Of a DNA stretch of 64,000 bases, positions 2,550 to 16,257 are shown piece after piece. The notes under the pieces are model-generated. The model made no database searches, was not told where the DNA came from, and worked only from the letters and a program-made list of their open reading frames with translations. The DNA is from Providencia vermicola (lineage in GTDB: Bacteria > Pseudomonadota > Gammaproteobacteria > Enterobacterales > Enterobacteriaceae). The position numbers were made by a program, and so were the translations under genes. The stretch is from assembly GCF_020381325.1 (NCBI RefSeq), contig NZ_JAGSPI010000008.1, forward strand, positions 62,001 through 126,000, given 5' to 3'. How positions within the stretch are numbered: position 1 is the stretch's first letter; each line of letters starts with the position of its first letter.

Positions 2550-3572
2550 CTACGGTGTGGACATAATAATTGTTGCTGCAGAGTTAAACTGGCCTTCGGT
2601 GAGCTCATTTGGCGATAAATTTGGCTTCTTTACTAACGTAAACATTAATGTATCTCGGCCATGGCCATTTTCGATTTTTGAATTGAAATGCCCATTCATT
2701 GGGGAAACACGTTGCCCTTGATGATAAATTTCTACACCTAATCCTGGCATAATCGGGCCTTGGCTGCCGATATCACCTGTTCTGACGAGTAGCGCATCTC
2801 CTGAAAAGGTTGATGTTTCACCACTTAAAATCATTTTTATTGGTGCTGTTAGATTATTATCTTCACAGCTATATGTGATCTCAACATTACGCTGAAAACG
2901 GCTCGCACTACCCACTGTTGAAATGCCTGATGCATTAACCGTTTCAAAATCAACAATAATGATTTGGTTATCATTGATATCGCATGTCCCTGTTCCAACA
3001 ACGACATCATTTCCAGCATAGAAATTCCATTTAAAATAGGCGTGGTCAATATGTTGGTTGCTGCCTACAAATGTTGCATATTTATGGAGATCGAGTGTCA
3101 TCAATAAATCCCCTTTTCTGACTAAAACTGAAGGTGTAGGCTTAACATTTACTTGCAAAAATAACTTAATTTGTAAGGGCTCAGAGGCGGTGGTTAAACG
3201 GAAAACTGGAATTTCTTGACCACTAAATGGTGCTAAATAATAAGCACCGCGTACAACAACACCCGCTTTTAATTCAGGATTATTTTTAAACGCAGGGCCT
3301 AAGTCAGCTCCTGTGACATTCAGGTAGTCGACATAGGCGGAGGGAGCTTCATTGCGGCAGGTCATAAAGTCGCTCACATCCGCGAATTCATTAATTCGAT
3401 TAGGTACAGCAAAAATATCATTATCAAGAGGAACATCTTGAATGCTTTGTGTTCCGCCGCCAACTTCTTGGCCCCCATTTGTTTTACATTGGAATGCAAA
3501 TATGGTGGGGGAGAATAATAAGGTTGCGAGAAGTAATATTAATATCTTCATTGTTACTGATACCTTAATCAT
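2550..3572 (-). CDS. FimH-like two-domain tip adhesin
   Basis: A 340-residue protein with a signal peptide ending near residue 26 (TIFA), then a mature start FQCKTNGG and a GGGTQ segment resembling the FACKTANG and GGGS start of FimH. The mid-protein segment FKWNFYAGNDVVVGTGTCD parallels the FimH linker region (WNIYANNDVVV then GGCD), after which a C-terminal pilin domain follows. So an N-terminal lectin-like domain and a C-terminal pilin domain are likely. The ATG overlaps the stop of the upstream subunit (ATGATTAA), implying translational coupling; an alternative ATG is at 3551. It is the last gene of the operon, the usual place for a tip adhesin. Ligand unknown. Confidence 0.8.
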   Translation of the reverse strand: MIKVSVTMKILILLLATLLFSPTIFAFQCKTNGGQEVGGGTQSIQDVPLDNDIFAVPNRINEFADVSDFMTCRNEAPSAYVDYLNVTGADLGPAFKNNPELKAGVVVRGAYYLAPFSGQEIPVFRLTTASEPLQIKLFLQVNVKPTPSVLVRKGDLLMTLDLHKYATFVGSNQHIDHAYFKWNFYAGNDVVVGTGTCDINDNQIIIVDFETVNASGISTVGSASRFQRNVEITYSCEDNNLTAPIKMILSGETSTFSGDALLVRTGDIGSQGPIMPGLGVEIYHQGQRVSPMNGHFNSKIENGHGRDTLMFTLVKKPNLSPNELTEGQFNSAATIIMSTP

Positions 3573-4131
3573 AAATTAAACTAAAAATAGCGGTTGCAGT
3601 AAAATGGCCAAACGCAATACTTTTATTTTTTATTGCATCGGGTTCCCCTTGTACATTCGCATTAAAACTTAATATATTTGTACCATTTTCTAGATTGTAT
3701 GCGGGCGTCGTACTATTAATGGGAATTTTTTTACCACTGTATTCTAAAATTTCAATTCCTATGCCCGAAGCCATACTGCCAGAATCTAATGCAAGGAGGC
3801 CTGGTAGATTGGTATTTTCGGTTCCTGTAAATTTAACTGTCACCGTTTTAAAGATACTATTATCACAGTCATCTAGGTGAATATTAAAATTTTCCAGTGG
3901 TGTTTTTTGGTTAATATAGAGGTATTTATTTACGATAGTACCAAAGTCCACAATGATATTTTCATCACCAGGCCTGACCGTGCAAGCTTCAGCGACAAGC
4001 TGTCCTCTTATCTTAATTTCACCTATTTGGCCATTTTTTGCATGGCTCGTTAATGAAAAAAATAACAAACTGAATAGCATGAAGAGTATTATTTTTTTAA
4101 ATTTGTTAAAATTGAAATTTAAGTTATTCAT
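3565..4131 (-). CDS. Minor fimbrial subunit (type 1/MrpF-G-like)
   Basis: A 188-residue pilin-family protein: signal peptide with a Lys-rich start and hydrophobic core to about residue 31 (SHA), then a Cys pair (ACTV near 50 and DDCD near 88) typical of type 1 pilins, and a C-terminal beta strand ending in SLIYD with the penultimate-tyrosine signature used in donor-strand exchange. It is probably an adaptor between shaft and adhesin, because it directly precedes and overlaps the FimH-like gene. Assignment to a particular Mrp letter is uncertain. Confidence 0.8.
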   Translation of the reverse strand: MNNLNFNFNKFKKIILFMLFSLLFFSLTSHAKNGQIGEIKIRGQLVAEACTVRPGDENIIVDFGTIVNKYLYINQKTPLENFNIHLDDCDNSIFKTVTVKFTGTENTNLPGLLALDSGSMASGIGIEILEYSGKKIPINSTTPAYNLENGTNILSFNANVQGEPDAIKNKSIAFGHFTATAIFSLIYD

Positions 4132-4170: not shown

Positions 4171-4785
4171 TTATTCATAGGTTATTTGGAAAGAAATAAT
4201 GCTTCGGTACGCGCCTGCCTGTAATTTTTCTGCAACTCTGACGGGGGCTACGTAATAAGTTAAAATATTTTGCCCAGACGAAATAAGTTGTGGTTCGCTG
4301 TACTCACCAAAGGCAATTTCTTTCCCTTTTGGGTTAGTAATTTGTAATCCCAATCCAGTAACACCTTCTACGCTGGCAATGTTAGGGCGAAACGGAATGA
4401 CAGGGGCAATAAACCGAATTTTCATCCCAGGCTGGGAAGTGCTCCATGTGACGTTGCCCGATTTATCATTTCTTAGGGCGGTTGGTGTGTCGATACAATC
4501 CAGTAATTCAATATTAATCGGGGTTTTATGGCCTTGTGCACCAATTGCTTTTAATGACGCAGTTTCAACATTCCCCAAATCAACGGATTGAAATGCAGAG
4601 TCCATAGATAAATGGCAAGCGCTCTCAGTTAAGGAGCCGTAAACAAAAATTTTTCCATTGGCGCCTTCGACATCCCAATTCCCTGTGGCATTATGAAAGG
4701 CATTCTCGGATGCTCCATATATTACAGACGATGGAAATATCAGAGATAACCCGAGAAGTAAGGTAAGACTTTTTTGATTAATCAT
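4171..4785 (-). CDS. Minor fimbrial subunit (MrpE-like)
   Basis: A 204-residue exported pilin-like protein. The signal peptide covers about residues 1-24 (SSVIYG). The Cys pair ACHLS near 57 and DCIDT near 96 is spaced as in classical pilins, and the C-terminus FQITYE carries the penultimate Tyr. It lies directly after the chaperone gene (10 bp gap), as mrpE does in MR/P-type operons, and probably acts as a tip or adaptor subunit. No adhesin domain is seen. Confidence 0.78.
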   Translation of the reverse strand: MINQKSLTLLLGLSLIFPSSVIYGASENAFHNATGNWDVEGANGKIFVYGSLTESACHLSMDSAFQSVDLGNVETASLKAIGAQGHKTPINIELLDCIDTPTALRNDKSGNVTWSTSQPGMKIRFIAPVIPFRPNIASVEGVTGLGLQITNPKGKEIAFGEYSEPQLISSGQNILTYYVAPVRVAEKLQAGAYRSIISFQITYE

Positions 4786-4795
4786 CTTTTACTCT

Positions 4796-5545
4796 CTATT
4801 TATTTTCAGGAATAACCTGGCATGTGCTGGCTTGGCATTTAAATTGCAATTTTGGGCGACCACCATAGTCATTGATATAGGTTAGTACTGGGTTCGCACC
4901 AACGGTGGAGCTTGGGACACCTAAATTTTCTTCGCTAAATGGCGCGATCATAACGGCTTTAAAATTATGATTTACAGGCGAGTTTATGCGCTCTGCTGCG
5001 CCAATAATGGTGATATAAAAAGGTGTTGGATTTTTAATAATATATTGGTCGCCTTGTTTAATAAGCTGTGTTTTTTCCTGCCAAGGGTTATTCAACATTT
5101 CCGTTTCACTTAGCATGATACTTTTCGGGCGGTAAAATAATTTAATTTTGCTTTGTAATGCTAATTGTAAAACATTCGGCTTATCACTTTTAGGTGGTAT
5201 CTCCCTTAAATTAAAGTAATAAACGCTTTCTCTGTCTTGAGGTAATTGGCTTATTTCAGGAAGCGCTTCAACACGAACTTGGCTTGATTTTTCGGGTTCA
5301 ACTCTTTGCACTGGAGGTAATACCGCAAAAGGAGAGGTAACTTTCACCCCTTGAATATTTTCTACCCAGCCTTGGGCTAAATAAGGCAGTTGGTTATTTT
5401 TATTGGTAATAGTAATTGAAACGCTTTTTTGATCGCCATTAAAAATAATGCGAGTTCTATCTAAAGCAATTGCTGAGAAAGCGCTTCCGCTAACTAAACT
5501 GCTTAATAAAATAGTACTGATATATAAATTAGTTAATTTTTTCAT
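4796..5545 (-). CDS. Periplasmic fimbrial chaperone (PapD/MrpD family)
   Basis: A 249-residue PapD-family chaperone. The signal peptide covers about residues 1-25 (SAFSA), then IALDRTRIIFNG starts the first immunoglobulin-like domain. RIIF with the following SVSITITNKN is the G1/A1 region, and YYFNLREIPPK near residue 100 is the family signature. It stabilises subunits by donor-strand complementation and delivers them to the usher. The start chosen is the ATG at 5545, preceded by GAG about 10 nt upstream; an in-frame GTG at 5554 is less likely. The usher gene ends 13 bp upstream. The C-terminal Cys pair (KCQASTC) fits chaperones of this clade. Confidence 0.92.
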   Translation of the reverse strand: MKKLTNLYISTILLSSLVSGSAFSAIALDRTRIIFNGDQKSVSITITNKNNQLPYLAQGWVENIQGVKVTSPFAVLPPVQRVEPEKSSQVRVEALPEISQLPQDRESVYYFNLREIPPKSDKPNVLQLALQSKIKLFYRPKSIMLSETEMLNNPWQEKTQLIKQGDQYIIKNPTPFYITIIGAAERINSPVNHNFKAVMIAPFSEENLGVPSSTVGANPVLTYINDYGGRPKLQFKCQASTCQVIPENK

Positions 5546-5558
5546 AGCAATCACTCAG

Positions 5559-8081
5559 TTACAGATTATTATCTGTTTCATTACGTTTATTTGATAATGG
5601 CTTACAAGGAATGAATAATCCTTGGCTAATTGTTTCTAAGTTCTCAGGAAAATGAATTTCACATTGAGCTGCGCCACCCCAATGAATAATCATGACTTCA
5701 TTTGGATTGATACCACTGACGTAGGCATATCCATTATCAGTGACGATCCCTGTTTCTTTTCCTTTCAAATTAGTAATCTGAGCACCAAATGGCGGCGCAG
5801 TGCCGTCAGACATACGCATTGAAAGCATCATTTTTTCACCAGACAATACATTAAATTTACGGTAGCCAATTGCACCTTCTGTTAATGTTGCCTGAACAAT
5901 AGAATCAGTTACCTCGGCATTATTCGGTAATGCATTTAAATCGACTTTAACTTTACTGCGGTAGTAACTATTTAAGTCAGGCACGACCACTTTACCGAAT
6001 GCATTGGATGCAATAGGGATACCGCGGTCTGATACGGGGATTTTAGCTATGCCGTCAGTGTCGATAAGTAAACGAGTGCCGCCAATATTTGAAACTCGGT
6101 GAGCATCCGCACCTTTCAACGTCATAGTGAATCCGCCTTGAGCCCCTAATCCAAATGACGTGTAGTTATTGTGAATATAGCTGGCATTTGCGGTTAATTT
6201 CGTATTATCTCCGTAATGAGTAATATAGGTGCTTGCGGTTCCACCTTTGTTGGTTGATCCTGCGCTCACTTGGTAATTAGTTCTATCTGATAGTTTGTCA
6301 TAATAGGTAGCCCGATTAACAGTATCATCCCGCGTTGCTTGTAATGAGTAACCAATATTGGCACCATTTCCCCAAGGCATTGATGCTGAAATATAAAGAC
6401 CGTCATCATTTGTTTCATTATATTTATTGCGATATGCAGATAATGAAATATTAATATTTTTCAGGCTTCCCCAATCTAAGGTTTTTGTTACCATTAAATT
6501 GTAGCGATTGCTTTCTGGCTTATCCCAATAGGTTTGGTGCGAATAATTTAAATAAGCAGTGATCCTTGATTCTCTAAAATTTTTATTTAGAGAAATCACA
6601 TACATTTCCTTATTACTGCCTTGGCGTTCGCCTGAATCTTTAGCTGTTAAAAAATCAGTCACAGTCATAAAACTGCGCTCAGAGAAGCGGTAACCTGCGA
6701 ATTGGACTTGGCTATCATAGTCATCAAAGCGCTTCGAATAGTTTATTCGATAAGAGTTACCTGTCAGTTTTTTATCATTCGGAATATTTGCAATAGAATG
6801 CGTAATATCGAAAGATAAAGCACCAAATGCTAATAGGTCGCGTCCTATACCTACGTTGAATGCATTATAGTCTTGGCTATTTAATGAGCCTGCGAGCAAT
6901 GACCAACCATTGGTGACACCCCATGACATTTCACCACTTGCGAATGTGTCTCCGTTCACATGGTGATCCATATCGGTTGGTCGACCCATTGCTAATTTAT
7001 ATCGAATACTACCAGGACGCGTTAAATAAGGGATATTAGCCGTTTCAACTTGATATTCTTGAACCGAACCATCCTGTTCTTCGATTCGAACATCCAGTTT
7101 ACCCGTCGTCGCATCGCTTAAGTTTTGGACACGGAAAGGCCCCGCAGCAACTTGTTCTTGGTAAATAACTCGCCCTTGTTGACTAATAATGACCGTAGCA
7201 TTGGTGGTTGCAACACCTGTGATTTCTGGCGCATATCCACGTAAGTTTGGTGGAAGCATTAAGATATCTGAGCGTAAGCTAATCCCAGTGAATCGAAAAC
7301 TGTCGAATAAATCCGTATTAAAATAGTCTTCACCCAAAGTTAGTTTTGCTTTAATGCTAGTTAAAGCTTTATAAGCATAAAGTCGGCTCCATTGGAAATC
7401 ATGCTCATTTTTACTATTTGAGCTAGTTTCTCGTTGGGCACGTCCCTGCCAATCACCCCTGAAGCGCCATGCACCAAGGTTAACACCTGCAACACCATTC
7501 GCCGTCACATTATAATTACTATTGTTATCGTGAGGTTTATTGGCTCTTGCATTAATGTTGTAGTCTAAAATAGCCCCTGAAATCCCCTCATCCCAAAGAG
7601 AGGGTGGATCCCAGTTAGCGGTTCTATATTCAAGATAGGCTTGCGGAATACTCAGGTATAATGTTGCGTCAGATAAATCGCCCTGAGCTTGAAAGCCAGG
7701 TAAACTGAGTAAATCAAGACACTCATTATTATGCCACCACGTAATTTTCTTCAATGAGTCCGCTGTTAGCCCTAATTGTTGGACTTGTTCTTGTGTAATA
7801 CATACAAGGCTTGCTTCAGGGTCATTTTCAGGTGCATAAAAAGAAAATCGTTGTTCAGGCAGAGTTTCTTTATTTAATTGTATTTTTAGAGGGTAAGTGC
7901 CAGGCATAATATAGCCAGCACGTGAGAATTGCTTAATATCGATGTTTTTTTTGTCTTCTAAATCAAATAATGCTGTATTAAATTGTATAGTATCAGCAGC
8001 ATATAACTGGGCAGATAATGACCCAAAAGCGAACATTATCGTTGTCGTTATTATATTTATTTTGTGTTGTTTAAAAAACAT
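5559..8081 (-). CDS. Fimbrial outer-membrane usher (FimD/MrpC family)
   Basis: An 840-residue usher, full length for the FimD/PapC family. Signal peptide to about residue 28, then TIQFNTALFDL, the N-terminal chaperone-binding domain start. The central beta barrel contains the plug domain near RGYAPEITGVA, followed by VIYQEQVAAGPF typical of ushers. The C-terminal domains contain PPFGA and the final Cys pair (CEIHFP and IPCK). It forms the pore for pilus assembly in the outer membrane. The start chosen is the ATG at 8081 because AGGG lies 9 nt upstream; an ATG at 8090 sits too close to that sequence. It lies between a minor pilin and the chaperone gene. Confidence 0.94.
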   Translation of the reverse strand: MFFKQHKINIITTTIMFAFGSLSAQLYAADTIQFNTALFDLEDKKNIDIKQFSRAGYIMPGTYPLKIQLNKETLPEQRFSFYAPENDPEASLVCITQEQVQQLGLTADSLKKITWWHNNECLDLLSLPGFQAQGDLSDATLYLSIPQAYLEYRTANWDPPSLWDEGISGAILDYNINARANKPHDNNSNYNVTANGVAGVNLGAWRFRGDWQGRAQRETSSNSKNEHDFQWSRLYAYKALTSIKAKLTLGEDYFNTDLFDSFRFTGISLRSDILMLPPNLRGYAPEITGVATTNATVIISQQGRVIYQEQVAAGPFRVQNLSDATTGKLDVRIEEQDGSVQEYQVETANIPYLTRPGSIRYKLAMGRPTDMDHHVNGDTFASGEMSWGVTNGWSLLAGSLNSQDYNAFNVGIGRDLLAFGALSFDITHSIANIPNDKKLTGNSYRINYSKRFDDYDSQVQFAGYRFSERSFMTVTDFLTAKDSGERQGSNKEMYVISLNKNFRESRITAYLNYSHQTYWDKPESNRYNLMVTKTLDWGSLKNINISLSAYRNKYNETNDDGLYISASMPWGNGANIGYSLQATRDDTVNRATYYDKLSDRTNYQVSAGSTNKGGTASTYITHYGDNTKLTANASYIHNNYTSFGLGAQGGFTMTLKGADAHRVSNIGGTRLLIDTDGIAKIPVSDRGIPIASNAFGKVVVPDLNSYYRSKVKVDLNALPNNAEVTDSIVQATLTEGAIGYRKFNVLSGEKMMLSMRMSDGTAPPFGAQITNLKGKETGIVTDNGYAYVSGINPNEVMIIHWGGAAQCEIHFPENLETISQGLFIPCKPLSNKRNETDNNL

Positions 8082-8118
8082 AAAAAACATCCCTAAAACA
8101 CCAATATAACTTTTAGAA

Positions 8119-8664
8119 TTAATAATAATCGACCTTGAACCTTAATAAGGTTTGGTAATTACCCGCTTTAACAGGATGATAATTGGTGACTAATTGCATT
8201 TGATATTTCAGTATCATTGTGCCAGGAGTAATTCCTAGTGCAGGTAATGGCTTTCCTGGTGTAATGGAATATCCTGAGATATCATGCAGTGCCAATTGCA
8301 CTCCTTTTGCTTCACCCGAGAGTGTGAAGAAATTACCTTCTGACGGACCATCAAAAGTGACTTCGAGTGAATTCCATTCGTTATTATCTTTTGAATATTT
8401 TTCCCAACGGCAATCAACGAGTTTAATATTGAATTCTTTTATGGGGCCTTTCCCAACTTCGCGAATATAGCTTGTTGGAAGAACCCCCATATTAATGGTC
8501 TGATCCCTTGACCCGATATCTATTGCACAGGCAGTATCGACTATTTCGCCGTTCATTGTGACTTTTCCCCATCCATGAGGTGATGCCGCCATTTGTGGCG
8601 AAAGAAATAATGTAAGAAGCAATAGAGACGATATATTTCTTGGCGAATAGATAAATCCTTTCAC
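8119..8664 (-). CDS. Minor fimbrial subunit (MrpB-like)
   Basis: A 181-residue pilin-family protein starting with GTG (8664-8662) behind a GAGG six bases upstream. The signal peptide reaches about residue 27 (MAAS). The Cys pair TACAI near 45 and DCRW near 84 and the C-terminal FKVDYY with a penultimate Tyr show type 1 pilin ancestry. Its place between major pilin and usher matches mrpB of the Proteus MR/P operon, thought to act as an anchor or terminator. The exact role is inferred from order only. Confidence 0.8.
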   Translation of the reverse strand: MKGFIYSPRNISSLLLLTLFLSPQMAASPHGWGKVTMNGEIVDTACAIDIGSRDQTINMGVLPTSYIREVGKGPIKEFNIKLVDCRWEKYSKDNNEWNSLEVTFDGPSEGNFFTLSGEAKGVQLALHDISGYSITPGKPLPALGITPGTMILKYQMQLVTNYHPVKAGNYQTLLRFKVDYY

Positions 8665-8730: not shown

Positions 8731-9294
8731 TTAGTTATAAGTTAAGGTAAAGTTAGTTACGCCTTCGAATTTACCTAATGGAATTTTATCTACTGCAACG
8801 TTTGCACCTTGTACATAAGCGCTATAACGTAGAGTGTTATCACCTGCTTGTAATTGGTGTTCTTGTGCTGTTGCAACACCCATATCTAATGCTGCACCGT
8901 TTGTATCCGTTAATTGAATACCGACGTTACCCGCAATAGTTGGATCGGTTGCATCTAAGCCAGTTACACCTAATAATTTAGAGTTGAACGCAGCACTAGA
9001 ACCAGAGAATGTGATGCTGACTTTGTCATTATAGACTTTGTCATTTGCATCTTTAGGGAATACACAGTCTTCTAATTCAATGTTGAATTGTTTCGCACTA
9101 GAAGTACCGCCATTTGCTAAAATAGAGTTAGCGATTTGGCCTAACCATACTGTTTGGTCAATAGAGTCGGAACTAATTGAGCAAGGTGCATCGATGATTT
9201 CACCTTTAAATGTAACTTTACCATGCCCTTGATCAGCGAGTGCTGGAGAAGCGATAGCGGCAGAAACAAGTGCTGCTAAAAATACTTTTTTCAT
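8731..9294 (-). CDS. Major fimbrial subunit (MrpA/PmfA-like type 1 pilin)
   Basis: A 187-residue pilin: signal peptide MKKVFLAALVSAAIASPALA (residues 1-20), mature start DQGHGKVTFKGEIIDAPCSI, Cys pair near residues 38 and 78 (EDCV), and the C-terminal FTLTYN beta strand with a penultimate Tyr. This is the standard major subunit of MR/P or PMF-type fimbriae. The ATG at 9294 is chosen because GAGG lies about 6 nt upstream; an upstream in-frame extension would add residues before the signal peptide. It follows the MrpJ-like gene by 82 bp and would be driven by the invertible promoter further upstream. Confidence 0.92.
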   Translation of the reverse strand: MKKVFLAALVSAAIASPALADQGHGKVTFKGEIIDAPCSISSDSIDQTVWLGQIANSILANGGTSSAKQFNIELEDCVFPKDANDKVYNDKVSITFSGSSAAFNSKLLGVTGLDATDPTIAGNVGIQLTDTNGAALDMGVATAQEHQLQAGDNTLRYSAYVQGANVAVDKIPLGKFEGVTNFTLTYN

Positions 9295-9376
9295 TTGAAC
9301 CTCATTTATATATAACAACGTGATGATTACCCAACAATTAAGTGGGCATAGTTAAAATTTTATATTTTTTAAATAA

Positions 9377-9766
9377 CTATTTGCTGTATAAAGAATTTAA
9401 AATAATTTCAGATTGCCGATTAAAAATATAATGGCAATTATCTTGCTCATCGAAGCGGCTTTCATTGTTATGAATAAATGAATTAGCATGAGGATGTTCT
9501 TCATTTATTTTCAATGTTATACTTTCGAAAAACGCACTAGGGTTAGTATCTAGATAGAATAAGATTGAAAATAACATCCCACAGTTAATGCTACATATTC
9601 CTCTTTCGTATCGAGAAATTTGTTGTTGTGATATTTTTAATTTTTTAGCTAGATCTTTACCGCTTAGCCCTTTTTCTTTTCTAAGGTGGAATAACTCCAA
9701 ACCAATTTGCTCAGTTAGTATTTTCTGAAAATTATCTATACTGGTTTTTAACTTATTATTTTTCAT
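9377..9766 (-). CDS. MrpJ-like XRE-family regulator
   Basis: A 129-residue cytoplasmic protein with a Cro/XRE helix-turn-helix at about residues 24-60 (LRKEKGLSGKDLAKKLKIS, then QQQISRYERG), a form typical of MrpJ-family regulators linked to fimbrial operons in Proteus. MrpJ represses flagellar genes when fimbriae are made. Here it is the first gene downstream of the invertible element and is co-oriented with the pilin operon, so fimbrial phase ON would also switch on this regulator. Role in motility repression is inferred from the family. A GGTGAG lies very close upstream of the ATG. Confidence 0.8.
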   Translation of the reverse strand: MKNNKLKTSIDNFQKILTEQIGLELFHLRKEKGLSGKDLAKKLKISQQQISRYERGICSINCGMLFSILFYLDTNPSAFFESITLKINEEHPHANSFIHNNESRFDEQDNCHYIFNRQSEIILNSLYSK

Positions 9767-9856
9767 ATCTCACCAATAAAGCTTTATGTCATTTGGTTTA
9801 TACAGTTAGATTGCGCTCGCAAAGCAAACAATTTGCTTTCTTTTTGACCGATAAAC

Positions 9857-9879
9857 GCAACAAAATAAATCAAAATGTT
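9857..9879 (+). repeat. Left inverted repeat of the phase switch
   Basis: 23 bp beginning GCAACAAAAT and ending AAAATGTT. Its exact reverse complement is at 10140-10162. It also overlaps a short local palindrome CGCAACA/TGTTGCG (9856-9862 / 9876-9882). Confidence 0.9.
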
Positions 9880-10096
9880 GCGTTAAATTGGTTTTAGATA
9901 ATTTGTTTAATATATTGGAGTTGTCAGGATTAAAATCTTTAATTCGCGTGTTTTGTTAGTAAATATGGAGTCTTTATCTGGTGGATTTTATTGGTGAAAA
10001 CATCACCGTTGGTAACTTTCTGTTGTAGATAACAATTTCTTACATTAATTACTAATTATCTCTAAAATAGATAATGCAAACAGAGTTTTATGCTAT

Positions 10097-10125
10097 TTGA
10101 TTTTAGTTAGTCTCAGAATTATACT
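10097..10125 (+). promoter_or_regulatory. Sigma70-like promoter inside the invertible element (pointing away from fimbrial genes)
   Basis: TTGATT (10097-10102), 17-bp spacer, TATACT (10120-10125), near the right edge of the element and reading rightwards. In this orientation it would transcribe into the AT-rich region antisense to the recombinase side; after inversion it would drive the MrpJ-pilin operon. It is the best promoter match I found in the element, judged by eye. Confidence 0.6.
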
Positions 10126-10139
10126 TATTAGGCATTTTA

Positions 10140-10162
10140 AACATTTTGATTTATTTTGTTGC
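10140..10162 (-). repeat. Right inverted repeat of the phase switch
   Basis: 23 bp beginning AACATTTTGA and ending TTTTGTTGC, the perfect reverse complement of 9857-9879. Confidence 0.9.
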
Positions 10163-10693
10163 ATTACCATTTGATTTTAAATGATTTTTTATATAGATCA
10201 TTGATTTTTATTTATTATTTAAAATATTTTTTATATTATTCTTATTTTTTGGTTTTATTTTTATATTTAATTTTTATTTTCCTGAATTACATGGCATTCA
10301 TGAAACTAAAAACTAAAATAATTTAATTATGATTTTTTTATTTATTAAATGTCTTTATATGACACTCTAAATACGAACTGAAATGTGATTTATACGTATA
10401 TATATTGATAATGTATTGTTAAATTTATGCGGTTGACTGAATACTCATATTTTGAGTATTTAAATTATGATAGTTGGTAAAAGAAGAATAAATAAAATTA
10501 TTAACTAACCTTATTTTGGCGGGTTGAAAAATAACGTACTAATGGCTCTATTTAGTGGTATTCACATTAAACATTCATAAGAATACCTCAGTTTTATAAA
10601 ACCAATTGGTTAAATAACTGAGGTATTCTTGGTGTTTAATTCATTTTATAATATTGAACTTTGGTTTCATGTTGACACAAGTCATTAATTTGT
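10163..10693. other. AT-rich non-coding spacer with hairpins, between switch and recombinase gene
   Basis: No credible gene is seen. It is extremely AT-rich, with long T-runs at about 10200-10280 and a small hairpin AATACTCA/TGAGTATT (10440-10447 / 10453-10460). The large palindrome at 10579-10630 is listed separately. Such AT-rich DNA next to fim switches commonly hosts H-NS, IHF or Lrp sites, but none is assigned here. Confidence 0.6.
10579..10630. repeat. Large palindrome with nested palindromic loop
   Basis: Perfect 15-bp arms AAGAATACCTCAGTT (10579-10593) and its complement (10616-10630) enclose a 22-nt loop containing the palindrome AACCAATTGGTT. Further out, ATTAAACA recurs in inverted form on both sides with a small offset. 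It lies 64 bp past the recombinase stop and could terminate or fold that mRNA, but lacks a clear T-run. Confidence 0.7.
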
Positions 10694-11251
10694 CTATTGA
10701 TTAGACCAAATACCGCTAAAGCGTTTTTCATTACTTGCGGTATAAATTACAGTATGGGCAATATTTCGATGCCCTAAATAGTCTTGAATTAATCGGGTAT
10801 CTCTACCGAGGTCAGCTAATGCATACCCACATGCATGTCTTAACATGTGCGGGTGAAGCTTGACGGGAAGTCCTGCTATCTTGCCGTATTGTTCAAATAA
10901 ACGATAAATTTGATAGCGAGAGATTTGGCTCCCTTTTTGTGAGATAAACAAGCTATCTGAGCTGGACGTTTTCCAAGAGTTTCGCTCGTTCAACCACCTT
11001 TCTATTGCAGTAAACTCTTCAGGAATTATCGGTTGAACAGTGGATAAACCTCCTTTTAACCGTCTGATGTAGATTATTTTTTGTACTAAATCAATATCAG
11101 CCATTGTGATGTGAGTCAGTTCGCTAACCCTTAGACCATGTAGGAAGCTCATTAATAACAAGCAGTAGTCGCGATTGGGATATCTCCCTTGTTTGGTTGC
11201 ATTTAATAGAGCGTTAACTTCTGTGCGTGTAATAAATTTACGTTTAGTCAT
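10694..11251 (-). CDS. FimB/FimE/MrpI-type tyrosine recombinase
   Basis: A 185-residue tyrosine recombinase, the short form typical of fimbrial switch invertases (about 180-200 aa). The catalytic set is visible: R41 in HGLRVSE, K66 in RRLKGG, H135 and R138 in HMLRHACG, H161 in LGHRN and the nucleophile Y170 in VIYTAS. It inverts DNA between short inverted repeats; the 306-bp element at 9857-10162 is the obvious substrate. It reads in the same direction as the fimbrial operon and has its own upstream region. A GAG lies about 8 nt before the ATG. Confidence 0.92.
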   Translation of the reverse strand: MTKRKFITRTEVNALLNATKQGRYPNRDYCLLLMSFLHGLRVSELTHITMADIDLVQKIIYIRRLKGGLSTVQPIIPEEFTAIERWLNERNSWKTSSSDSLFISQKGSQISRYQIYRLFEQYGKIAGLPVKLHPHMLRHACGYALADLGRDTRLIQDYLGHRNIAHTVIYTASNEKRFSGIWSNQ

Positions 11252-11576
11252 TATGATCTCATTTATACCTCGTTACATTTCGCTATATACCGACAGTAAA
11301 TTAACTAAAAATAATTAATTTTTCTAAAATTAAATATAATATGTCATAAACATGCGTGATGATACCTAAATACAAGTGATTAATCATGATGACTTTTCAT
11401 ACTCTCTCACCGCGTTAAAAAGTGTAAGAAAACAGAAAGAACGGAATTCTTGAAGGATAAAATTTATTTTTCTAAAACAGGTCTCACTCACTGAAATAAA
11501 TTGATTTATGAGGGGATGTTGTTGCGTTGGTACTAAAGAGGAAGGGGATGTAAAGGGCATCTACGGGTAAAAATTT
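11252..11576. other. Intergenic region upstream of the recombinase gene
   Basis: About 325 bp without a credible gene. It should hold the recombinase promoter. I see AT-rich DNA near the recombinase start but no operator or repeat I can support. Confidence 0.5.
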
Positions 11577-13209: not shown

Positions 13210-16200
13210 TTACGCCTTTTCAACATTGACTAAAAACGCTTTATATTCAGGCGTGAATGCATTTGCATCACCAACTGATGGCGTCAATGTATTGGCAAGG
13301 AAACCTTTTTGTGTTGCTCCCTCAAATCCCCAGTGGCAAGGGATCCCAATGGTTTCAACCACATTACCATTAATAGTTAATGGACGAATGCGTTTGGTGA
13401 CTACGGCTTTGGCTTTAATAAAACCTCGTTTTGCACTGACTTTGACTTCATCACCTTGTTTAATGCCTTTTTGTGAGGCTAATTGTTCACCGATTTCGAT
13501 AAATTGGTCGGGCTGTGCAATGGCGTTTAATAATGAGTGCTTAGTCCAATGACGGAACAGTTCAGTAATAGAGTAAGTTGTTGCTACATAAGGAAAATCT
13601 TTTGCATTTCCTAAGTGATCCGCATCATAACTGTATAAACGAGCAACAGGGTTACGCGATACTTTTGGATGCAAAATATTGTGTTCTACTGGGGATTCAA
13701 ACGGTTCGTAGAACTCAGGAAATGGGCCGTCAGCCATTTTATCCACGGCGAATAAGCGACCGACACCCTCAGGTTGCATAATGAATGGCCCTACACCGCT
13801 GTTTGGTGGTGCATTACCAAAATCAGGGACATCAAAACCGCTCCATTGGGTACCATCCCACTTAATGAGTTGGCGTTTTTCATCCCAGGGTTTTCCACTT
13901 GGGTCGACGGAAGCTCGGTTATAGAGAACGCGGCGGTTTTGTGGCCATGCGAACGCCCAGCCTGGAGTACAGCCTAAGCCTGATGGGTCTGCATTATCGC
14001 GGTTCGCCATCTGGTTACCTTTTTCTGTCCAGCAACCAGAATAGACCCAGCAAAAACTGGCCGTTGAGCCATCGGATTTCAATTGGTGGAAACCATCAAG
14101 CTGTTGCCCTTTTTTGAACAATAACTTGCCCGCATCATCATAAATGTCCTGCATCGCTTGGCCATTCGCTTCTCTTGCCACTTCTTCGGGCTGTGGATCA
14201 TAAGGGTCAACATAATTCCAAGAGAGGTTCATTAACGGCTCAGGGCAAACACCGCCTTCTTCTTGGTATAATTGACGAAGTCGCATCAATAAGTGCCCTA
14301 GAATTTTGCCATCATGCCAGGCTTGTGCGGGGGGACGAGCGCCAGCCCAATGCCATTGTAACCAACGACCAGAGTTTGCAATCGATCCATTTTCTTCAGC
14401 AAAACAAGAAGATGGAAGGCGGAAAACTTCTGTTTGAATATCGGGGGTGGTGACGTCGTTCATCTCGCCGTGGTTTTGCCAGAAGTTTGATGATTCGGTA
14501 ACCAACGGGTCAATGATGACCAAATATTTGAGCTTCGAGAGTGCCACGCTACATTTGTTTTTATCGGGGAATGCAGCTAATGGGTTAAAACCTTGAACGA
14601 TATAGCCATTCATTTTTCCTTCAACCATCATTTGGGTTTGTGCCATGATGTCATAGCTCTTATCCCATTTAGGTAGCCAGTGGTAACCCCATTCATTGGC
14701 TGCAGTGGCATTATCACCCCAAAAGCTTTTCATTAAACTAATGAAAAAATCGGGCGTTCTTTTCCAGTAATTTACTTGGTCAGGCACGATTGAGCTTGGT
14801 GTAATTTGCGATAGGTAGGTTTGCAGTGAAGCCTGTTTTTCGTTGGGTAACGGCATATAACCCGGTAGATTCAAAGAGAGTAACCCTAAATCGCTATAAC
14901 CTTGGATGTTGGAGTGGCCTCGTAGTGCATTGACACCGCCACCAGGCATACCGACGTTACCCAGCAATAACTGGATCATACCTGCGGTACGAATAGTTTG
15001 GGCACCACCAGTGTGATGTGTCCACCCTAATGCATACAAAATGGTCGATGTTCTGTCTTTGCCAGAAGTAGAAGCAAGTTGTTCACAAATATAGATAAAG
15101 TCTTCAAGTGGCGTACCACATAAGGTTGTGACGACTTCAGGCGTATAGCGGGAAACGTGTTGCTTCAAGAGGTTCCAAACACAACGAGGATGTTGAAGTG
15201 TTTGATCCTTGAGCGCATGGCCATTTTCATCGGTTTCATAGTGCCAAGAGCTGCGGTCATACTGTTGTTTATCGTCATCAAAGCCGCTAAAAAGCCCATC
15301 ATCAAAATGATAATCTTCACGAACAATTAATGGCGCATTAGTATAAGCTGTCACATACTCATGTTGAATTTTATTATTTTCAATAAGATAGCGAATGATA
15401 CCGAGTAAAAATGCGGTATCTGAGCCCGCACGGATCGGCGAATACATATCTGCGACAGAGGCGCTGCGGTTAAAGCGTGGGTCAACAACAATGACTTTGG
15501 CATTATTTTTGATCTTGGCTTCGATAACCCATTTGAAACCGACGGGATGCGCTTCTGCTGGGTTTCCACCCATGATTAAAATGACGTTGGCGTTTTTAAT
15601 ATCAACCCAGTTGTTGGTCATTGCGCCGCGCCCAAATGTTGGAGCAAGCGCGGAAACGGTCGGGGCATGGCAAAGTCGGGCTTGGCAGTCGATAGCGAGC
15701 ATGCCTAGTGAACGGGTGAATTTATTATCGAGAATGCCAGTTTCATTGCTCGCAGCGGATGAACATAGCATCCCTGTTGTCAGCCAGCGGTTAACTTCTT
15801 GGCCTTTTTCATTATGAGTAACGAAATTCTCATCGCGGTCTTTTTTCATTAAGCGCGCAATTTTATCTATTGCCTCATCCCATGAAATACGTTCCCATTT
15901 ATCGGAGCCTGGTTTGCGATATTCTGGGTTTTTTAGGCGGTTTTCACTGTGGATATAGTCGATAAGTCCCGCCCCTTTTGGGCATAACGAGCCTCGGCTA
16001 ACAGGGTGGTCAGGATCCCCTTCAATGTGATAAATACTTTTTTCTACGTTTTTGGCGCCATCACCTAAGCTGTACATCAAAATACCGCAGCCCACGGAAC
16101 AATAGGTACAGTTGTTACGTGTTTCGACGGAACGTAATAGCTTATATTGGCGAGAACCTGCGAAAGATATATTTGGGGCAAAACCAAGTAGTGCAGCAGA

Positions 16201-16257
16201 AGTTCCTGCCATACCACCGGCACAGATTTTGAAAAAAGACCGTCGACTGACTTGCAT
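13210..16257 (-). CDS. fdoG: Formate dehydrogenase-O/N alpha subunit, cysteine form
   Basis: A 1015-residue molybdopterin oxidoreductase of exactly the family length that oxidises formate to CO2 in the periplasm. A twin-arginine signal (SRRSFFK, residues 4-10) directs Tat export. The [4Fe-4S] ligands are C50, C53, C57 and C92. The active-site residue is C196 in ARLCHAPT, encoded TGC at 15672-15670, where E. coli FdnG and FdoG have selenocysteine encoded by TGA. So the enzyme is predicted to work without selenium, or with altered kinetics. It is the first gene of fdoGHI. FdoG rather than FdnG is suggested by the N-terminal sequence but not proven. Confidence 0.93.
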   Translation of the reverse strand: MQVSRRSFFKICAGGMAGTSAALLGFAPNISFAGSRQYKLLRSVETRNNCTYCSVGCGILMYSLGDGAKNVEKSIYHIEGDPDHPVSRGSLCPKGAGLIDYIHSENRLKNPEYRKPGSDKWERISWDEAIDKIARLMKKDRDENFVTHNEKGQEVNRWLTTGMLCSSAASNETGILDNKFTRSLGMLAIDCQARLCHAPTVSALAPTFGRGAMTNNWVDIKNANVILIMGGNPAEAHPVGFKWVIEAKIKNNAKVIVVDPRFNRSASVADMYSPIRAGSDTAFLLGIIRYLIENNKIQHEYVTAYTNAPLIVREDYHFDDGLFSGFDDDKQQYDRSSWHYETDENGHALKDQTLQHPRCVWNLLKQHVSRYTPEVVTTLCGTPLEDFIYICEQLASTSGKDRTSTILYALGWTHHTGGAQTIRTAGMIQLLLGNVGMPGGGVNALRGHSNIQGYSDLGLLSLNLPGYMPLPNEKQASLQTYLSQITPSSIVPDQVNYWKRTPDFFISLMKSFWGDNATAANEWGYHWLPKWDKSYDIMAQTQMMVEGKMNGYIVQGFNPLAAFPDKNKCSVALSKLKYLVIIDPLVTESSNFWQNHGEMNDVTTPDIQTEVFRLPSSCFAEENGSIANSGRWLQWHWAGARPPAQAWHDGKILGHLLMRLRQLYQEEGGVCPEPLMNLSWNYVDPYDPQPEEVAREANGQAMQDIYDDAGKLLFKKGQQLDGFHQLKSDGSTASFCWVYSGCWTEKGNQMANRDNADPSGLGCTPGWAFAWPQNRRVLYNRASVDPSGKPWDEKRQLIKWDGTQWSGFDVPDFGNAPPNSGVGPFIMQPEGVGRLFAVDKMADGPFPEFYEPFESPVEHNILHPKVSRNPVARLYSYDADHLGNAKDFPYVATTYSITELFRHWTKHSLLNAIAQPDQFIEIGEQLASQKGIKQGDEVKVSAKRGFIKAKAVVTKRIRPLTINGNVVETIGIPCHWGFEGATQKGFLANTLTPSVGDANAFTPEYKAFLVNVEKA

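Follow-up and report, generated by a model that had tools for sequence, protein, structure and literature searches.

A probable promoter-inversion switch with a single MrpI-type recombinase at a fimbrial operon of Providencia vermicola

Inversion of a promoter segment upstream of fimbrial genes is well known, and the fim, fot, mrp and mad systems are among those described (excerpts of PMC9820224 and PMC5903667), the mad switch being named in the latter. At the mrp locus of Proteus mirabilis the invertible element is 252 bp long, MrpI is the sole recombinase and the last gene encodes MrpJ, which represses motility (excerpts of PMC9820224). Morganella morganii KT is described with three mrpI copies and a duplicated mrp operon (excerpt of PMC3521468), and genome-wide inversion detection has located an invertible site near fimbriae in Providencia stuartii (excerpt of PMC5903667).

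Here we describe a locus within a 64-kb stretch of the P. vermicola genome (the window; the assembly comprises 4.24 Mb in 19 contigs) that is very probably a promoter-inversion phase switch controlling a fimbrial operon (Table 1). A first-pass annotation had reported exact 23-bp inverted repeats at 9857-9879 and 10140-10162 delimiting a 306-bp segment, and the coordinates confirm this; 260 bp separate the arms, which reach 26 bp, one mismatch included, on outward extension. The window has no second exact inverted repeat of 16 bp or longer whose arms start within 1 kb, and in 300 dinucleotide-preserving shuffles of positions 9251-11300 the longest inverted repeat is 17 bp (in one shuffle), with none reaching 18 bp. 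The GC content of the element compares with 21% for the stretch between it and the recombinase gene (10163-10693) and 39% for the window. The MrpJ-like first gene, the promoter, the phase and the kinship of the arms with mrp arms, all described below, are additions to that annotation.

Table 1. Features of the predicted switch and the adjoining genes (window coordinates).
Feature	Position	Strand	Remarks
Predicted invertible element	9857..10162	.	306 bp, 26% GC; exact inverted repeats at ends
Operon-side arm	9857..9879	+	Centre of 31-bp dyad site 9854-9884 (AACGCAACA-N13-TGTTGCGTT)
Recombinase-side arm	10140..10162	-	22/23 columns invariant (8 genomes)
Sigma70-like promoter, TTGATT-17-TATACT	10097..10125	+	Points away from operon
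Hairpin, likely terminator	10579..10630	.	Between recombinase gene and element; 21-nt arms, 90% complementary
Tyrosine recombinase, FimB/FimE/MrpI type	10694..11251	-	PF00589 2e-43; 185 aa
MrpJ-like HTH regulator, first gene past switch	9377..9766	-	HTH_3 9.6e-10
Major fimbrial subunit	8731..9294	-	PF00419 1.3e-15
Fimbrial subunit-like protein	8119..8664	-	No Pfam match; fimbrial NCBIfam matches below cut-off
Outer-membrane usher	5559..8090	-	PF00577 4.4e-158; NF011812 1023 bits (cut-off 972)
Periplasmic chaperone	4796..5554	-	PF00345 1.3e-36
Minor fimbrial subunit	4171..4785	-	PF00419 2.7e-08
Minor fimbrial subunit	3565..4131	-	PF00419 5.6e-18
Tip adhesin, FimH-like lectin and pilin domains	2550..3572	-	PF09160 6.4e-09; PF00419 2e-13

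The genes are all transcribed leftwards, in the order recombinase, hairpin, element, MrpJ-like HTH regulator, major subunit, subunit-like protein, usher, chaperone, two minor subunits and adhesin. The earlier placing of the element in front of a fimbrial operon is thus borne out, the MrpJ-like gene coming first and the chaperone-usher genes after it. The HTH protein contains SQQQ-x-SRYERG, which an alignment of nine proteins shows to be common to the HTH genes that end mrp operons, and we take the SQQQ-x-SRYE motif to be a mark of MrpJ. For the major subunit, the ATG at 9294 is a likelier start than the one at 9318 in the list of open reading frames. The best PDB match of the adhesin is FimH (1.7e-13), with FmlH/FmlD chains also matched, and no chain named MrpH is among its 25 PDB matches. 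Two stretches containing the hairpin fold at -31.2 and -33.1 kcal/mol; a terminator scan found none.

Two rightwards-transcribed frames (118-2504) are convergent with the operon; the first encodes an EcpD-like adhesin, which scores 379 bits with NF047911 (cut-off 900), and the second has no NCBIfam match. Elsewhere in the window, an uninterrupted frame on the minus strand (13210-16257), recognized by eye, encodes a formate dehydrogenase alpha subunit with a cysteine in CQARLCHAPTV at the position where E. coli FdnG has selenocysteine.

The recombinase is a short, single-domain phage-integrase protein that exceeds the cut-offs of two subfamily models (NF007370, 242 bits with a cut-off of 221; NF007371, 236 bits with a cut-off of 222), and these matches, together with PF00589 and the gene order, agree with the initial assignment of a FimB/MrpI-type recombinase near a fimbrial operon. 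The catalytic set originally listed for it (R41, K66, H135, R138, H161 and Y170) was verified in full; for FimE, residues R41, H136, R139 and Y171 are given (excerpt of PMC9820224). No second recombinase of the subfamily was found in the window genome, where the two other relatives are frames of 312 and 333 aa with 30-33% identity. The nearest named loci are those of P. vermicola P8538 and Providencia rettgeri RB151 and YPR31 (94% identity), followed by Providencia burhodogranariea and Providencia alcalifaciens BIGb0506 (86%), and identity to MrpI of P. mirabilis ATCC 29906 is 64%. A tree of 104 rows, built by a quick method with no bootstrap and flagged by the program for long branches, places the window protein and MrpI in one 63-row set (SH-aLRT 97), nearly all from the Morganellaceae, within which the 12-row branch of the window is sister to 51 rows that include P. 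mirabilis MrpI (SH-aLRT 96); the clade of the window lies beside genomes G001 and G019 (SH-aLRT 86). In seven comparisons dN is 0.014-0.045, with dS of 0.65-2.7 in five and saturated in two, and on these alignments the recombinase is under strong purifying selection.

Comparison of 24 Providencia genomes, one per species, shows a close recombinase orthologue (at least 86% identity) in ten, and the full element, with an interior of 260-261 bp, in eight of these (8/24 overall). Among these eight, the operon-side arm is invariant at all 23 columns and lies in a run of 31 successive invariant columns (9853-9883), whereas only 57% of interior columns are invariant and the left and right flanks fall to 26% and 21%. 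Variation within the arms is confined to base 7 of the recombinase-side arm, which is T in the seven relatives and A in the window; the same column of the operon-side arm is A, so that the window has A in both arms. The dyad of the operon-side arm is complete (9/9 pairs) in seven genomes and has 8/9 pairs in the remaining one. We considered this strong symmetry as a mark of the OFF state and retain it as an observation and not as a mechanism. Nine of nine pairs are found in three of four Proteus loci (5/9 in L051) and two of four Morganella loci (8/9 and 7/9 in the others), OFF Photorhabdus loci have 7-8 and mrp-type Providencia loci 6-7 of nine, and the letters of the dyad differ in each genus.

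The arms and both promoter hexamers are retained in all eight elements despite 16-24% divergence of the interior. If the inner edge of the operon-side arm is not counted, the longest invariant stretch of the interior covers 14 bp, including the -10 box TATACT; the -35 box TTGATT, 17 bp away, sits in an invariant block of 9 bp. A further invariant block of 10 bp (10041-10050) is without explanation. A consensus promoter scan by itself gives no excess over shuffles (13 found, 14.2 expected) and was dropped as evidence in favour of conservation and of the position of the motif in other elements. The window assembly looks OFF, since the promoter faces away from the operon, and all eight full elements, from distinct Providencia genomes, are oriented alike, with no inverted copy of the window element among them.

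In two genomes the switch region is interrupted by scaffold gaps: P. burhodogranariea (G021) has 333 N where the element should be (L037, 11117-11449), and P. mirabilis ATCC 29906 (L045) has a gap of N at the mrp switch, upstream of mrpI. Mixed-phase cultures could have caused both gaps, and other causes exist. P. alcalifaciens BIGb0506 (G013) retains a single arm and the element's recombinase-side end, with the recombinase frame open; by eye, the -10 end adjoins the recombinase-side arm as in the other genomes, and frames that look transposase-like by eye follow the remnant. Of the operon, only the last subunit and adhesin genes and a piece ahead of them are recognized.

Very probably the recombinase binds the arms, exchanges strands inside them and flips the DNA between. 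In the assembled orientation the promoter reads toward the recombinase side, which corresponds to OFF. Inversion would bring the -10 box to 9894-9899 and the -35 box to 9917-9922 on the minus strand, and a transcript starting near 9887 would have a leader of about 120 nt, cross the operon-side arm and run through the MrpJ-like gene (ATG at 9766) into the fimbrial genes. ON cells would be the main producers of the regulator, which, like MrpJ, probably reduces motility and may also act back on the operon. We infer that inversion occurs in living cells and that the promoter is active, inversion by an MrpI-type enzyme being taken over from the behaviour of the family.

The arms have a core in common with the arms next to MrpI-type recombinases in Proteus, Morganella and Photorhabdus. 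Proteus repeats span 23 bp, one mismatch included, and Morganella repeats 20 bp; the earlier statement that Proteus mrp repeats are longer than those of fimS fits these lengths. A TTGAC box lies 54-55 bp from an element end in all 31 mrp-type rows, at the distal end in 28 and the operon-side end in three. As four rows repeat a locus (and three rows contain N), these represent 27 distinct loci, 24 OFF and three ON, and the ON rows are all from Photorhabdus (L049, L058 and L083). Between two Photorhabdus species (L056 and L058) the inside is turned round, while the base after AACA that distinguishes the arms (A in the operon-side arm, G in the recombinase-side arm) keeps to its flank. This puts the exchange within the arm, on the inner side of that base. 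The corresponding bases (operon side/other side) are A/G in Proteus, A/T in seven of eight Providencia at the window locus and A/C in mrp-type Providencia, and do not differ between arms in Morganella or in the window.

In Morganella, a second, co-directional switch (L087, 992-1343; L088, 893-1246) lies beside a recombinase scoring 206-214 bits and has arms close to those of Providencia. A third Providencia type (L136, L137, L149, L150 and L151) has a recombinase of about 51% identity, in whose match the search called one stop; its sites resemble GTTGTCAAAATGCACCAAATTGACAAC and form pairs of 334-352 bp end to end, with two HTH frames after them.

In the window genome the arm site has two matches with no mismatches and eight others with three mismatches (nine matches for a control pattern); it thus occurs only at the element when fewer than three mismatches are allowed, and the recombinase has no other evident target in that genome. 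A genus-wide scan gives 15 matches in G019 and one for the control, and with a palindromic form of the site and at most three mismatches G019 has 31 matches at 16 positions (L189-L196) and the control has two. At this threshold 22 of the 24 genomes have matches, which outside G019 and the known switches mostly carry three mismatches. The 16 positions make up seven inverted pairs (near 541k, 595k, 685k, 1199k, 1238k, 1913k and 1917k) and two single sites (1596k and 3369k). Five pairs measure 320-324 bp end to end, share a near-palindromic site and precede an MrpJ-like gene; all have the same promoter as the window element, 67-70 bp from the distal end, and all are OFF. Fimbrial genes are recognizable after three of them: 1238k and 1917k are followed by a major subunit and then another subunit, 1199k by a chaperone and more frames. 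Behind 1913k a run of 2937 N begins, and the frames after the 541k regulator were not recognized as fimbrial. As 1913k and 1917k are near-copies flanking this N run of about 2.9 kb, they may be one locus doubled by assembly. The two remaining pairs, of 242 bp, lack the promoter motif; one is flanked by a transporter and a ROK-type frame, the other by a frame without family and a hydrolase. Several of the G019 stretches have scattered N, and one single site is within 300 bases of an N run.

No family recombinase adjoins any G019 pair in the stretches examined. The single short family recombinase of this genome (1783940-1784452) is 63% identical to that of the window, with no pair of the site within the 10 kb examined around it. 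One pair has a 217-aa integrase-like frame (1911153-1911602; PF00589, 44.5 bits) some 1.6 kb away, and as G019 has 22 PF00589 matches in all, another enzyme could act there. G001 (L197, 4507-4827) and G013 (L199, 1769-2091) each have one site-matched pair with the same distal promoter; an HTH gene comes next, then genes for a major subunit, a subunit and an usher. Neither pair was found to have a family recombinase beside it in the stretch examined (1.8 kb on the far side in G013). Both genomes also have an mrp-type recombinase, which in G001 is about 26 kb from the pair.

The promoter motif (TTGATT-N16-18-TA[AT]A[CT]T), which was written after the elements had been inspected and so is not a blind test, lies 65-70 bp from the distal end in seven of nine elements and never faces the operon; only the 242-bp pairs lack it. 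It is found in 0.6% of shuffled elements per strand and once in the window. The G001 element, brought in once the motif had been settled, carries it at 66 bp and precedes an MrpJ-like gene, although this is not a fully independent test since its interior is akin to those of 1199k, 1913k and 1917k (scores of 95-104, controls 28-48). When the promoter end is excluded, the eight elements that bear the motif form three groups of interior similarity (that of the window; 1199k, 1913k, 1917k and G001; 541k, 1238k and G013), and between groups the scores are near control, the highest being 63 for 1199k and 1238k against 46. About three lineages, and not eight separate cases, therefore back the position of the motif. 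Wherever the promoter of an element of this kind can be read (15 elements: eight at the window locus, five in G019 and one each in G001 and G013), the phase is OFF; this does not differ from the three ON among 27 mrp-type loci (Fisher p 0.54), and equally it reveals no flip. An account of the G019 sites as mobile elements was rejected in general, most pairs of interiors scoring near reversed controls, with exceptions among 1199k, 1913k and 1917k, between 595k and 685k and, more weakly, among 541k, 1238k and G013.

With slightly more doubt than belief, we entertain the idea that one family recombinase serves as a trans-acting master switch in Providencia, the window being the one-switch form to which the recombinase is attached. 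Action in trans would mean that each flip releases its own MrpJ-like regulator, and that a single enzyme generates combinations of fimbrial and motility states. In G013 the switch beside the recombinase is wrecked and a site-matched pair lies elsewhere.

For the window locus itself, three other accounts deserve weighing against a working inversion switch. The switch may once have worked and now be fixed OFF, with the arms and recombinase persisting for other reasons, such as service of the recombinase at other sites or binding of another protein to the arms. The shared orientation of all eight elements speaks for this, and in G013 the recombinase frame is open where most of the element and operon have given way to transposase-like frames; however, the confinement of the site to the element leaves the recombinase no other evident target in the window genome, and arms and promoter boxes have been held while the interior diverged, and we regard a fixed-OFF locus as unlikely. 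That a host recombinase (XerC or XerD) or a distant enzyme acts on the arms in place of the neighbour is considerably less probable still. The site-matched pairs of G001, G013 and G019, which have no adjoining family recombinase in the stretches examined, are compatible with such an enzyme, but at the window locus the recombinase adjoins the full element in eight of eight genomes, the arms resemble those beside MrpI-type enzymes, and the only other relatives found in the genome are the two long, distant frames.

A repeat arising by chance or for structural reasons without recombination, as a hairpin or as the ends of a mobile element, might be thought of in so AT-rich a region, but the shuffles fall short of 18 bp and a 260-nt loop is unfit for a terminator; nor does the window element appear to be a repeated mobile unit, as its interior has no clear homology with the site-matched elements. 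We give this explanation almost no credence. Returning to the inversion switch, the suggestion in the first-pass annotation that it is active or recently active is favoured by the constrained recombinase, arms, spacing and promoter and by a family in which both orientations are seen, and is weakened by the uniform orientation of the eight elements. The locus is thus best regarded as a real, probably active switch of a known kind.

Providencia, a genus with opportunistic urinary and gut members, here gains a defined fimbrial phase switch whose ON and OFF states can be predicted, and in which fimbriation is tied to an MrpJ-like regulator sited first behind the switch. The matching sites at loci with no adjoining recombinase provide a natural setting in which to ask whether a single enzyme operates several switches. 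In the open-licence PMC literature, where absence is weak evidence, we found no earlier report of this locus in the P. rettgeri/P. vermicola group, of the order recombinase, switch, regulator and operon, or of site-matched switches without a neighbouring recombinase.

Among the described systems, the P. stuartii site shares with the window the genus and a fimbrial locus but, in the excerpt of PMC5903667, is an 844-bp segment that has imperfect repeats of 14 bp and encloses a recombinase frame. The mrp-type loci of Photorhabdus, whose identity with mad is putative, have kindred arms and occur in both orientations, and differ in a divergent recombinase and in an MrpJ-like gene that, where seen, is at the far end of the operon. 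In E. coli fim the recombinase is upstream and co-directional, and the same arrangement is found in a Klebsiella locus (L099). The window element is similar in size to fimS (excerpt of PMC5903667) and serves an operon with a FimH-type adhesin, but has one recombinase where E. coli has two (FimB and FimE), a regulator as the first gene, and arms of 23 bp compared with 9 bp (excerpt of PMC6083910). With mrp of P. mirabilis it shares the recombinase family, a promoter inside the element, an MrpJ-type gene in the operon and, in other Proteus species, a related arm core. However, mrpI is divergent with the switch on its 5' side, whereas the window recombinase reads toward the operon with the switch on its 3' side; MrpJ ends the mrp operon, whereas the MrpJ-like gene comes first here; the window adhesin matches FimH in the PDB; and the -35 box is about 54-55 bp from the element end in mrp-type elements and 65-70 bp in those of the window kind. 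In gene order the window operon departs from the mrp (MR/P) layout, with a co-directional recombinase and the regulator in first place.
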